DNA of 64,000 bases from Sporosarcina jeotgali. GTDB lineage: Bacteria; Bacillota; Bacilli; Bacillales_A; Planococcaceae. The stretch covers positions 1,097,001 to 1,161,000 of the forward strand of contig NZ_CP116341.1 in NCBI RefSeq assembly GCF_033304595.1, given 5' to 3'. Positions within the stretch are counted from its first letter, which is position 1; every line of letters begins with the position of its first letter. Under the pieces are notes generated by a model. That model worked only from the letters and a program-made list of their open reading frames with translations, was not told the DNA's origin and searched no databases. Below, piece after piece: positions 22,339 to 40,954 of this stretch. Made by a program: the position numbers and the translations under genes.

Positions 22339-22356
22339 AACAGGCAGGTGATAAAG

Positions 22357-23256
22357 TTGTCCGGTTTAGGCGATCGCCTTAAAGAGGCGAGAAAAGCAAA
22401 AGGATATACCTTGGATGACTTACAAGCAATTACTAAGATTCAGAAACGGTATTTGGCTGGAATTGAAAACGAAGACTACAGTATGATGCCTGGTTCATTT
22501 TATGTTCGGGCATTCATAAAGCAATACGCTGAAGCAGTCGGGCTTGATGCACAAGAAATGTTGTCATTATATCGTGAAAACGAATCCTCAGAACAAATGA
22601 AAGAAGAGGAAATTCAACGAAGTGCACCCCAGCTGTCACAAAAAGCAGGGTATATGAAATCCGGCAGAATGAATGAAGTTCTTCCTAAAATCATTGCTGC
22701 TCTGTTTATCATCGTCATTCTTGCTGTTGTTATTTTTCTTTATAAACACCAGGCAAATACACCGAAACCTGAAGTAGGAACATCCGATGAGATTACAGTT
22801 GATAACAACAAACCTGATGATTCTAAATCAGATGGAAACAAAGGTGAGGAAGGCAAAGATGCGGATTCTAAAGAAGATGCAAATAAGCCGAACGAGCCAG
22901 AAGAAGAACCTGAGGAAGAACCAGCTCCTGAACAGACGCTTACACAAGGCGCTGTAAACGGTGAAACAACAACGTTCACACTGGAAAATGCAGATACCTT
23001 CAATTTATCCGTCAAAGTGAAAGATGGCGGCGAATCATGGATTGGAGTAACCAATCAAAATGGGCAAGAACTTCTTCCTAACGGCGCACGCGTAATGAAA
23101 AACGGGGAAGAAGCTGAGCTTGACTTAGCGGACCAGCAATCTGTAAGAATTCGTGTAGCGCGTACTCAATTTACTGAGATTCTTGTGAATGGTCAATCAC
23201 TAACTTATCCCAATGATAATATGATTCAAAATATCGTTATTGAATATAAAAAATGA
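22357..23256 (+). CDS. rodZ: RodZ-like cell-shape protein (YmfM)
   Basis: A 299-residue bitopic protein. A cytoplasmic helix-turn-helix domain occupies residues 1-75 (LKEARKAKGYTLDDLQ), as in RodZ, which binds MreB and helps place the elongation machinery. A single membrane helix spans ~111-129. It is followed by a strongly acidic Asp/Glu/Lys/Pro linker (~140-190) and a C-terminal DUF4115-type beta domain outside the cell. TTG 22357 is chosen because AGGTGAT is 5 bases upstream and it gives the family N-terminus; GTG 22348 lies inside that site. Two terminators follow. Confidence 0.9.
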   Translation: MSGLGDRLKEARKAKGYTLDDLQAITKIQKRYLAGIENEDYSMMPGSFYVRAFIKQYAEAVGLDAQEMLSLYRENESSEQMKEEEIQRSAPQLSQKAGYMKSGRMNEVLPKIIAALFIIVILAVVIFLYKHQANTPKPEVGTSDEITVDNNKPDDSKSDGNKGEEGKDADSKEDANKPNEPEEEPEEEPAPEQTLTQGAVNGETTTFTLENADTFNLSVKVKDGGESWIGVTNQNGQELLPNGARVMKNGEEAELDLADQQSVRIRVARTQFTEILVNGQSLTYPNDNMIQNIVIEYKK

Positions 23257-25364: not shown

Positions 25365-26423
25365 TTGAGCGAACGCAAAGCGGCTTTAGATCAAGCACTT
25401 AAACAAATAGAAAAACAGTTTGGAAAAGGCTCTGTCATGAAACTGGGCGAGAAGACAGATAGAGAGATTTCCACATCATCGACTGGATCACTTGCACTTG
25501 ACTCTGCACTTGGGGTTGGCGGATATCCAAGAGGACGTGTCATTGAAATTTACGGACCAGAAAGTTCAGGTAAAACGACAGTTTCACTTCACGCAATTGC
25601 AGAAGTTCAAGCTGCAGGAGGAACAGCTGCTTTTATTGACGCGGAGCATGCGCTGGATCCTGTCTATGCACAAAAACTTGGAGTGGATATCGATGAGCTT
25701 CTATTATCACAGCCGGATACAGGAGAGCAGGCACTAGAAATCGCAGAAGCTCTTGTACGAAGCGGTGCAGTTGAAATCATCGTTATTGACTCTGTTGCTG
25801 CTCTAGTACCTAAAGCGGAAATTGAAGGAGAAATGGGAGACTCCCACGTAGGTTTACAAGCACGTTTGATGTCTCAAGCTTTACGTAAACTCTCCGGTGC
25901 TATTAACAAATCGAAAACGATTGCTGTCTTCATCAACCAAATTCGAGAAAAAGTCGGAGTTATGTTCGGTAACCCTGAAGTCACTCCGGGTGGACGCGCA
26001 CTTAAATTCTACGCTTCTGTCAGACTTGAAGTTCGACGCGGTGAAGCGATTAAACACGGAAACGAAATCATGGGTAATAAAACTAGAATTCGTGTTGTGA
26101 AGAACAAAGTGGCACCGCCTTTCCGTACAGCTGAAGTAGATATCATGTATGGAGAAGGTATTTCCAAAGAAGGCGAAATCGTCGACTTAGGTGTTGAAGT
26201 GGAAGTCGTTCAGAAGAGCGGGGCGTGGTATTCTTATGAAGGTGAGCGTATGGGACAAGGTCGTGAAAACGCGAAGCAGTTCTTAAAAGAAAACCCGGCG
26301 ATTCGTGCGGAAATTTCCGATAAAATTCGCAGCAGTTATGGATTGAATAGTGATAATTATGTAATCGCAGCTCACGAGTCAGAGGATGAAGATGAGTTAG
26401 AGCTATTTGAAGAAAAAGAATAA
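25365..26423 (+). CDS. recA: Recombinase RecA
   Basis: A 352-residue strand-exchange protein that also triggers LexA self-cleavage. Walker A GPESSGKT lies at 64-71, Walker [11 protein letters not shown] around 140, and the DNA-binding loop region [20 protein letters not shown] is intact. The C-terminus is acidic, as usual. The real start is TTG 25365, 8 to 9 bases after AAGGAGG, giving the canonical [10 protein letters not shown]; an upstream TTG at 25347 falls inside the ribosome site. Expression is under an SOS box. Confidence 0.98.
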
Positions 26424-31621: not shown

Positions 31622-31622
31622 C

Positions 31623-31650
31623 ACTTTCTGGGCTTCTGTTGCATAGGATG
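31623..31650 (+). promoter_or_regulatory. Candidate mother-cell promoter of cotE
   Basis: CATAGGATG (31642-31650) resembles sigma-K (CATAnnnTA) and sigma-E (CATACAnT) -10 elements. An AC dinucleotide at 31623-31624 lies 17 bases upstream, as expected for a sigma-K -35. B. subtilis cotE has both sigma-E and sigma-K promoters. The match is imperfect. Confidence 0.4.
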
Positions 31651-31678
31651 TAAAGAAGTCCACGAAGGAGGAAAAAAA

Positions 31679-32227
31679 CTGAAGAATCTACGACAAGTCG
31701 TTACGAAGGCAGTAATTGCAAAAGGGAAGCAGCGTACAGAAAAGGAAGTCACGCTTCTCCCGCCTAATCGTCCTTCCAGTATTCTTGGCTGCTGGGTCAT
31801 CAACCACACCCATAGCGCCAAAAAGGCTGGATCAACCATTGAAGTAACCGGTAAATTCGATGTCAACGTCTGGTACTCTCACCACGACCATTCCAAAACT
31901 TCAGTATTCACAGAGACAGTGAACTACAAAGACAAAATCCGTCTGCGCTATCGGGATGAACCCTCATCCTCTAAAGAAGAAATTCGAGTTGAAGTGTTAC
32001 AACAGCCAAACTGCACAGAGGCAATCATTTCGGATTGTAAAGAGAAGTTCTTAATCAAAGTCGAACGCGAGCTTGTGGCGGAAGTGATCGGTGAAACAAA
32101 AGTCATGATTACAGTCCATCCTAATGATTTTGAAGAGGAATGGTCATTCGATGATGAGTCATCCCACCATCAAAGTCATGCCAATGAAGGCGGTTCGCGA
32201 GCAGGAAAAGACAACTCACAGTTTTAA
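31679..32227 (+). CDS. cotE: Outer spore coat morphogenetic protein CotE, apparent CTG start
   Basis: The frame from 31679 gives a 182-residue protein, matching B. subtilis CotE (181). CotE assembles the outer coat on the mother-cell side. The start reads CTG-AAG-AAT and lies 7 bases after a perfect AAGGAGG (31665-31671). The N-terminal VVTKAVIAKGK aligns with IITKAVVAKGR at the same residue numbers, so CTG falls exactly on the B. subtilis Met1. There is no in-frame ATG, GTG or TTG before GTG 31919, which would remove 80 conserved residues. SSILG-WVINH, VLQQPNC and ELVAEVIGETKV are family hallmarks. The tail is Ser/His-rich rather than strongly acidic. A sequencing error at the A of ATG is the main alternative. 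Confidence 0.88.
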   Translation: MKNLRQVVTKAVIAKGKQRTEKEVTLLPPNRPSSILGCWVINHTHSAKKAGSTIEVTGKFDVNVWYSHHDHSKTSVFTETVNYKDKIRLRYRDEPSSSKEEIRVEVLQQPNCTEAIISDCKEKFLIKVERELVAEVIGETKVMITVHPNDFEEEWSFDDESSHHQSHANEGGSRAGKDNSQF

Positions 32228-36816: not shown

Positions 36817-37731
36817 ATGAAACAACAGGAACTCAAAATGTCTGATGGAGTAATTCTTGATGCCTATGTCATGGAACCTTCTGGAGCTCCGCGCGGACAA
36901 ATCCATCTTGTTCATGGCATGGCAGAGCATATTGGGCGGTACGAAGCGGTCATGAATGATCTTTCTCAAGCTGGCTACTTAGTCACTGGATATAACCAGC
37001 GCGGACATGGACAACGGGCGCTTGACCAAAAGCAGCTAGGGGACTTTGGCGAAGGGATCACATTTGATAGACTCGTTGAAGATGTGCGGGAAGTAATGAA
37101 TGCATTTAGTGCAGATGACTCTAACCAGCCGCGGATTTTGTTTGGACACAGTATGGGATCGTTTATTGTCCGTCGTTTTTCTCAGAGATACGGAAAAGAA
37201 ATAGATGCCCTTATTTGTTCCGGAACTGCTGGGAAACCAGGTATGACAAGAGTTGGAGGCAGTATTCTAGCCTCTGTTTTATCCATTAAAGACGGTTCGC
37301 ATGCACCAAGTGAAGTACTTGATAGGATTGGTTTTGGCGGATACAACAGAACTGTCGAAAATCCAGAGACGAAGTTCGATTGGCTTTCTACAGATCGGCA
37401 AACTGTGCATGATTATATTGAGGATCCTCTTTCAGGAGCGGTTTCAACGAATCATTTCTTCCATGTCTTATTTGACGGCTTGAAATTAATCAGTTCGACA
37501 TCCGCATACGAATCGGTTCCTAAGAAATTGCCTGTCCTTTTATTTGCAGGGACAGAAGATCCTGTAGGGAACATGGGAAGCGGGATTTTTGAAGCAGCGG
37601 GAATGTATCAGGATGCGGGTGTTGAAAATGTACGGGTCCATCTATTTGAAGGTGTTAGACATGAATCCTTACAAGGGACTTCGAGAGACTCTGTGCTGAC
37701 GATGATGAAACAGTGGGTGAATAATTTATGA
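36817..37731 (+). CDS. Alpha/beta hydrolase, lysophospholipase/monoacylglycerol lipase type
   Basis: A 304-residue serine hydrolase of the S33/Hydrolase_4 family. The nucleophile elbow GHSMGSF is intact. HLVHGMAEHIGRYE forms the oxyanion/HG region and the late GTEDPVGN and GVRHESL stretches give the acidic and histidine members of the triad. Related enzymes cleave lysophospholipids or monoacylglycerols; the substrate here is unknown. It has its own AGAGGAGGG site, lies 16 bases after mutL and overlaps miaA by 4 bases. I know of no equivalent gene at this point in B. subtilis. Confidence 0.85.
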   Translation: MKQQELKMSDGVILDAYVMEPSGAPRGQIHLVHGMAEHIGRYEAVMNDLSQAGYLVTGYNQRGHGQRALDQKQLGDFGEGITFDRLVEDVREVMNAFSADDSNQPRILFGHSMGSFIVRRFSQRYGKEIDALICSGTAGKPGMTRVGGSILASVLSIKDGSHAPSEVLDRIGFGGYNRTVENPETKFDWLSTDRQTVHDYIEDPLSGAVSTNHFFHVLFDGLKLISSTSAYESVPKKLPVLLFAGTEDPVGNMGSGIFEAAGMYQDAGVENVRVHLFEGVRHESLQGTSRDSVLTMMKQWVNNL

Positions 37732-39688: not shown

Positions 39689-40954
39689 ATGAGTATACAG
39701 CAATTGAACGATGAAATCTTAAATCGTGCAGAAAAAGTTGAAAACGAACTACAACCTTATGCAAAAGCTGCCGAACGCATCGCTTTCCTCAATCAAAAGA
39801 AAGTATTGGCAGCGTTCAGAAAGAATCGTGTGAGTGACTTTCATTTAACCGGATCCACTGGATATGGATATGATGATGCAGGCAGAGAAGTGCTTGAGCA
39901 ATTATATGCCGATGTTTTTGGAGCGGAAGCAAGTCTAGTGCGCGGTCAAATCATTTCGGGCACACATGCGATTGCGATTAGCCTTTTCGGGATATTGCGG
40001 CCCGGAGATGAACTGCTTTATATAACAGGGAAGCCCTATGATACGTTAGAGTCAATCGTATCCGGCGGAGATCAAGATACAGGCTCGCTGCAGGACTTCA
40101 ATATCGGCTACCATCATGTTGATTTATTGGAAAATGGAACTGTTGACTATGAAGAAGTTGAACGTCAGATCAATCCCAACACTAAAATGATTGCCATTCA
40201 GCGTTCCAGAGGCTACGCGGACCGCCCATCGTTCACAGTTGCCGAGATTGGCGACATGGTGAAGCGGATAAAAGCAAATCATCCCGATATTATTATATTT
40301 ACTGATAATTGTTATGGTGAATTTGTCGAAGAGCTGGAGCCGACGGATGTTGGTGCAGATCTGATGGCGGGGTCATTGATCAAAAACCCGGGTGGCGGTC
40401 TTGCTCGTACAGGCGGCTACATTGCAGGAAGAAAAGAATTGATTGAGAAATGCGGATACCGCATGACTTCACCTGGCTTAGGCGCAGAAGCAGGAGCATC
40501 ACTGGATACGTTACGAGAAATGTACCAAGGATTTTTCCTAGCTCCGCACACTGTAAGTCAAGCCGTAAAGGGCGCACAATTTACGGCAGGCATGCTTGAA
40601 TCCTATGGGCTAGTGACAGCCCCTCATTATTCTGCAGCCCGAACGGATCTGATTCAATCGGTATCATTCCAAAATGCCGAGCAAATGGTCGCATTCTGCC
40701 AAATGATCCAAGCCAACTCACCAATCGATGCACACGTGAGTCCTGTGCCATCGTACATGCCAGGCTATGCAGATGATGTCATTATGGCCGCTGGAACCTT
40801 CATCCAAGGCTCCAGCATCGAGTTGACAGCGGACGGCCCTATTCGTCCGCCGTATACAGCGTACATCCAAGGCGGCCTCACGTACGAACACGTAAAAGTC
40901 GCCATCCTATCGTCTGTTGAGCGACTAATCGAACTTGAATTAATCAAATCATAA
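39689..40954 (+). CDS. ynbB: PLP-dependent methionine gamma-lyase family protein (YnbB)
   Basis: A 421-residue protein, the same length as B. subtilis YnbB, of the aluminium-resistance/cystathionine-gamma-synthase-like group. The PLP-binding lysine is in SLIKNPGGGLARTGGYI. A glycine-rich phosphate site (SGTHAIA) and FTDNCYGEF with the PLP-contacting Asp are visible. Specific activity is not established. In B. subtilis it lies between hflX and glnRA; neither neighbour is present here, and the repeat array follows immediately. Confidence 0.88.
   Translation: MSIQQLNDEILNRAEKVENELQPYAKAAERIAFLNQKKVLAAFRKNRVSDFHLTGSTGYGYDDAGREVLEQLYADVFGAEASLVRGQIISGTHAIAISLFGILRPGDELLYITGKPYDTLESIVSGGDQDTGSLQDFNIGYHHVDLLENGTVDYEEVERQINPNTKMIAIQRSRGYADRPSFTVAEIGDMVKRIKANHPDIIIFTDNCYGEFVEELEPTDVGADLMAGSLIKNPGGGLARTGGYIAGRKELIEKCGYRMTSPGLGAEAGASLDTLREMYQGFFLAPHTVSQAVKGAQFTAGMLESYGLVTAPHYSAARTDLIQSVSFQNAEQMVAFCQMIQANSPIDAHVSPVPSYMPGYADDVIMAAGTFIQGSSIELTADGPIRPPYTAYIQGGLTYEHVKVAILSSVERLIELELIKS

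Follow-up and report, generated by a model that had tools for sequence, protein, structure and literature searches.

Our analyses indicate that cotE of Sporosarcina jeotgali is likely translated from a CTG codon at position 31679 of the window (the whole 64-kb stretch of DNA analyzed), and that this codon has probably been kept because poor initiation would limit the amount of CotE. We consider this the best explanation as a whole and hold it with good confidence.

The cotE Gene and Its CTG Codon

The cotE coding sequence occupies positions 31679–32227 of the forward strand (182 codons for 182 residues, followed by the stop codon at 32225–32227), with its frame intact, and is present as a single copy in the genome. 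Its product gave a full-length match to the Pfam CotE family (PF10628, outer spore coat protein E), in which residues 4–163 aligned to profile positions 2–162 of 177 with 199.7 bits (E 3.5e-59; the curated cut-off is 25 bits). A search of CotE against NCBIfam gave no match. The closest named records by CotE were those of Sporosarcina sp. isolate cluster2_bin.11 (99%), S. gallistercoris (98%) and Sporosarcina sp. D27 (95%).

The CTG (31679–31681, forward strand) is preceded by the Shine-Dalgarno sequence AAGGAGG (31665–31671, forward strand), from which it is separated by a 7 nt spacer, AAAAAAA. An earlier note made from the letters of this DNA had described a complete CotE frame opened by CTG behind this sequence, and had stated that no ATG, GTG or TTG occurs in the frame before residue 81. 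Both statements proved correct. The nearest in-frame stop upstream lies 33 codons before the CTG, and none of these three codons is found in the frame between that stop and the CTG, nor after the CTG until the GTG at 31919–31921 (forward strand), which is codon 81. A gene listing that allows only ATG, GTG and TTG as starts consequently shows cotE as a 102-residue remnant from GTG 31919. When both strands of the 64-kb window were searched for AGGAGG at 5–10 nt before a CTG, two sites only were found, that of cotE and one at 25627. The latter opens a frame of 36 codons, in which another NTG follows three codons later and others lie upstream. Since there is just one other such site in the 64-kb window, the arrangement at cotE appears to be more than chance.

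The conserved block T-K-A/S-V-V/I-A-K-G of the encoded protein, numbered from the CTG, falls at the same residue number as in nine CotE proteins of Bacillus/Jeotgalibacillus-type records (L132–L138, L140 and L141), all of which have ATG as codon 1. The earlier note had made this comparison with B. subtilis; the agreement in numbering stands for these nine records. The window's CotE and that of Bacillus have in common their family (PF10628), their N-terminal numbering and a GCATA-type promoter element in front of the gene. They differ in the start codon: the nine Bacillus/Jeotgalibacillus-type records have ATG, and genomes of the Sporosarcina, Bhargavaea, Viridibacillus and Lysinibacillus types have CTG.

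Start Codons of cotE among Relatives

Comparing the cotE starts of close relatives had been suggested in the earlier note. Codon 1 was read in 61 genomes of the genus (60 CTG, 1 TTG) and in three more from a family sample, giving CTG in 63 of 64 Sporosarcina genomes (g1) and TTG in one. The family sample comprised 151 genomes, 116 of which had a cotE match with a readable start, such that 163 distinct genomes of the family were available in total; genus names were assigned to groups by agreement with named records. A search at the level of the order returned genomes of the same family only and no outgroups.

Codon 1 was an NTG codon in all 163 genomes: 93 CTG, 28 TTG, 25 GTG and 17 ATG. Besides Sporosarcina, CTG was found in every sampled genome of Bhargavaea/Edaphobacillus (g3, 8/8), Viridibacillus (g5, 3/3) and Lysinibacillus (g14, 15/15). 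ATG was found in all 16 genomes of Psychrobacillus (g4) and in one of Paenisporosarcina (g11), the other eight of which had TTG. The remaining groups had GTG (g13, 16 genomes; g15, 1; g19, 3), TTG (g18, 5) or both (g10, 12 TTG and 4 GTG; g2, 2 TTG and 1 GTG, the g2 genes being distant matches with 34–39% identity). As ATG is codon 1 in only 17 of the 163 genomes, we infer that the family tends to weak cotE starts.

The 93 CTG genomes include the four of group g17 (L178, L208, L209 and L210), in each of which the CTG is immediately preceded by an ATG in the same frame (ATGCTG). The cotE start in g17 is probably this ATG, as though the weak start had been sidestepped and the CTG left in place. 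Two further observations concern the sample itself. No cotE match was obtained in 35 of the 151 genomes, and 6 of the 19 genera had none in the sample; these may be non-sporulating lineages. In addition, a record titled Arthrobacter beigongshangensis REN13 (L094) has a Sporosarcina-type cotE region, and its name looks wrong.

These comparisons bear on two alternatives raised in the earlier note. The first is that an ATG at 31679 was misread through a sequencing or assembly error, in favor of which are the single-base difference between the two codons and the seven consecutive A in front of this one. This reading is refuted by relatives, since the same CTG recurs in 63 of the 64 genus genomes, which are independent of one another, and in 26 of 26 genomes of the three further genera, and we give it practically no chance of being right. 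The same holds for the second, that cotE is a pseudogene in decay whose start has been lost, a view for which the unusual nature of CTG as a start codon might speak. Against it are the intact, single-copy frame with its full Pfam match, the occurrence of CTG throughout the genus, and the pattern of change across the 64 genomes, in which codons vary synonymously and residues are conserved.

Position of the Initiation Site

In seven genomes of the genus the sixth codon upstream of the CTG is the stop codon TAA, and the interval between the two consists of GAA GGA GGA and two spacer codons. Because of this stop, the CTG is the only plausible start in these seven genomes. A further 22 genomes have a stop at the tenth or eleventh codon upstream, after which the CTG is the sole NTG. 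(In 12 of the 64 genomes the fetched stretch ended before any stop.) All 63 CTG genomes of the genus have AAGGAGG (42 genomes) or AGGAGG (21 genomes) at exactly 7 nt before the CTG.

We considered whether translation might begin elsewhere, either upstream, at a non-NTG codon or as a leaderless start, or internally, at the GTG of codon 81. In model systems CUG initiates poorly, and in-frame NTG codons do occur upstream of the CTG in 4 of the 64 genus genomes and in all Lysinibacillus- and Bhargavaea-type genomes. The Bhargavaea type has a TTG immediately behind the Shine-Dalgarno sequence, two codons upstream of the CTG, and the Lysinibacillus type has a GTG nine codons upstream, before the Shine-Dalgarno sequence, such that another start is less firmly excluded outside Sporosarcina. 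Within the genus, however, the four upstream NTG codons are at places that differ from one another, and the 29 genomes with a stop 6–11 codons upstream have no other NTG in between. As to the internal GTG, 8 of 42 Sporosarcina-type loci have GTG as codon 81 and the others GTT, ATT, GTA, ATC or ATA, and a start there would remove about half of the CotE domain. A start away from the CTG is thus, in our judgment, very unlikely.

An upstream mini-ORF, whose TGA stop would overlap the start (CTGA) and allow re-initiation at the CTG, seems even less likely. The overlap arises wherever codon 2 begins with A, which is the case in 163 of 163 genomes, and several genomes of the genus have an out-of-frame ATG or TTG before the TGA (e.g., L020 and L010). 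However, the corresponding frame in the window has no ATG, GTG or TTG between the TGA and the preceding stop, the ATG of relatives being ACG in the window, and the overlap is a simple consequence of lysine at codon 2 (Lys in 161 of the 163 genomes, Arg, encoded by AGA, in the other two). We therefore rejected the mini-ORF, the internal GTG start, sequencing error and pseudogene decay as explanations of the cotE CTG.

Together, these comparisons strongly support initiation of cotE at CTG 31679. The gene has no usable ATG, GTG or TTG, its Shine-Dalgarno sequence is at a working distance, and the codon is kept beyond synonymous drift, as detailed below. The proposal of the earlier note that translation starts at the CTG is accordingly backed by the presence of this codon in nearly the entire genus at a fixed spacing of 7 nt.

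Conservation of the CTG Codon

A tree of the 64 genus genomes was built with FastTree, excluding the start codon (10.2 substitutions per site), and codon changes were counted on it by parsimony. Codon 1 of cotE changed once. By comparison, four leucine columns conserved in at least 63 of the 64 genomes had 20–23 codon changes each, with 10, 5, 11 and 11 changes at the first position. Across all residues conserved in 60 or more of the 64 genomes (87 residues, Met and Trp excluded), the median was 13 codon changes and the minimum 3. Codons 2–6 changed 5–10 times each, which is below the leucine columns and above codon 1. The single change at codon 1, set against 20–23 at conserved leucine codons, suggests that the CTG itself is held by selection. 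Comparison thus showed that CTG in particular is kept in Sporosarcina, and the codon is also present in all sampled genomes of the three further genera.

Neighboring genes served as a control in 42 named Sporosarcina-type loci, where a locus was counted only if it had an NTG at the aligned start. Start codons changed 11 times in the gene at 36817, six times in mutL, three times in miaA, twice in hfq and once in ymdB; no changes were found for ymcA, the gene at 39689 and the GTG-started gene at 22348. The last of these (22348–23256) has a strictly kept non-ATG start, GTG being present in all 33 loci whose start could be aligned (of 37 loci with a hit). As ATG and GTG starts of some neighbors are equally fixed, cotE is not alone in having an unchanging start, but its fixed codon is unusual in being CTG.

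These results also allow a neutral account, in which the CTG is a real start that persists through inertia, or because every alternative carries a slight cost, and has no role in setting the level of CotE. The equally fixed starts of ymcA and of the genes at 39689 and 22348 favor this view, as do the use of all four NTG codons at codon 1 within the family and the absence of compensation by Shine-Dalgarno strength across genera (see below). On the other hand, first positions of conserved leucine codons changed far more often (10, 5, 11 and 11 times) than codon 1. Moreover, AUG, GUG and UUG are each one step away from CUG, and the switches described in a published survey go towards AUG (PMC5622118). 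We regard the neutral account as unlikely, with a modest chance of being right, and favor selective retention of the CTG.

The Shine-Dalgarno Sequence, Promoter and Leader

Upstream of the Shine-Dalgarno sequence is a probable sporulation promoter (31622–31649, forward strand), which consists of CAC and then GCATAGGAT and resembles a sigma-K site. Its GCATA and the AT after it showed no variation among the 64 genus genomes. The element (CAC ... GCATAnnAT) comes directly after the T-run behind ymcA, and a CTGGGC block stands before it in most of the loci inspected.

Duplex energies of the Shine-Dalgarno sequence, compared across clades, did not support a stronger Shine-Dalgarno sequence offsetting weak starts: the means of clade means were −12.6 for CTG, −12.6 for GTG, −12.8 for TTG and −11.8 for ATG. 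By longest exact match, CTG genomes always had at least AGGAGG. Shorter matches were found in the GTG genera g15, g19 and part of g13, in the TTG genus g18 and in the lone TTG genome of Sporosarcina. There is no clear pattern relating match length to start codon, as the TTG genera g10 and g11 and the ATG-started Psychrobacillus also have AGGAGG or longer. The TTG genome of Sporosarcina, a single case, has GAAGGGGG in place of GAAGGAGG (−11.7 versus −12.5).

A conserved leader structure was considered and rejected, as the RNAalifold consensus of 57 distinct leaders was empty and a CAGT able to pair with the start was found in 26 of the 64 genus genomes, this partner not being conserved. Folds of single sequences placed the CTG within a helix in some genomes; its unpaired probability was below 0.1 in 17 of the 64, and the window's genome was among these low ones.

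Comparison with Other Rare Start Codons

A parallel to the cotE CTG is infC, which encodes the initiation factor IF3. The ATT start of infC is conserved and serves feedback by IF3 itself. The infC gene of the window's genome (L257) appears to start at ATT behind CGGAGGTGG, bringing the apparent number of rare starts in this genome to at least two, the CTG of cotE and the ATT of infC. In both genes a rare start is kept behind a Shine-Dalgarno sequence. CotE, however, is a coat protein with no known role in initiation, and a feedback loop of the infC type probably does not apply to it. Judged by its sequence conservation, the cotE CTG would be real and would join known conserved rare starts such as the infC ATT.

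A putative upstream CUG with a Shine-Dalgarno sequence, resembling the arrangement at cotE, was seen by toeprint upstream of dnaA in Caulobacter. This CUG is reported to be unused in vivo (PMC8443254), whereas the cotE CTG is conserved and has no alternative start. CTG starts hardly occur in bacterial annotation, with 20 annotated ORFs in 69 model genomes, as cited in PMC9845219, and they are very rarely gained: in a published survey, switches to CUG were 2 of 61,358 ancestral AUG, 1 of 5,080 GUG and 1 of 2,468 UUG starts (PMC5622118). Initiation complexes on CUG are described as less stable than those on AUG, GUG and UUG (PMC11497404), and one study could detect no product of a CUG reporter, either in E. 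coli or in chloroplasts (PMC9845219). Our literature searches, which reached few subscription journals, found no report of a CTG start of cotE.

Proposed Role of the CTG Start

Based on these observations, we propose that cotE is transcribed with a short leader, probably from the conserved sporulation-type promoter just upstream, and that the near-perfect Shine-Dalgarno sequence at its fixed 7 nt would place the initiator tRNA on the CUG. Initiation of CotE would then occur with formyl-Met at low efficiency, a protein made from a CUG start presumably beginning with formyl-Met and not with leucine. By analogy with published work on CUG starts, it is plausible that the CTG lowers the level of CotE, as the earlier note had supposed, and the codon has probably been kept because poor initiation would hold this coat-organizing protein at a low set level.

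More tentatively, we speculate that the CTG is a developmental translation throttle. The weakest usable NTG would be kept in at least four genera by selection, such that initiation in the late mother cell would determine how much CotE is made or when, perhaps in step with the levels of initiation factors at that stage. We think this extended form of the proposal doubtful.

The finding has a practical side, as cotE starts in the family may be wrongly annotated: a listing confined to ATG, GTG and TTG cuts the gene at codon 81. This developmental gene has retained a rare CTG start throughout a genus, and the same codon is present in every genome sampled from three others. Because it is natural and simple to edit, cotE would be a suitable system for asking if a poor start codon can be deliberately maintained in bacteria.
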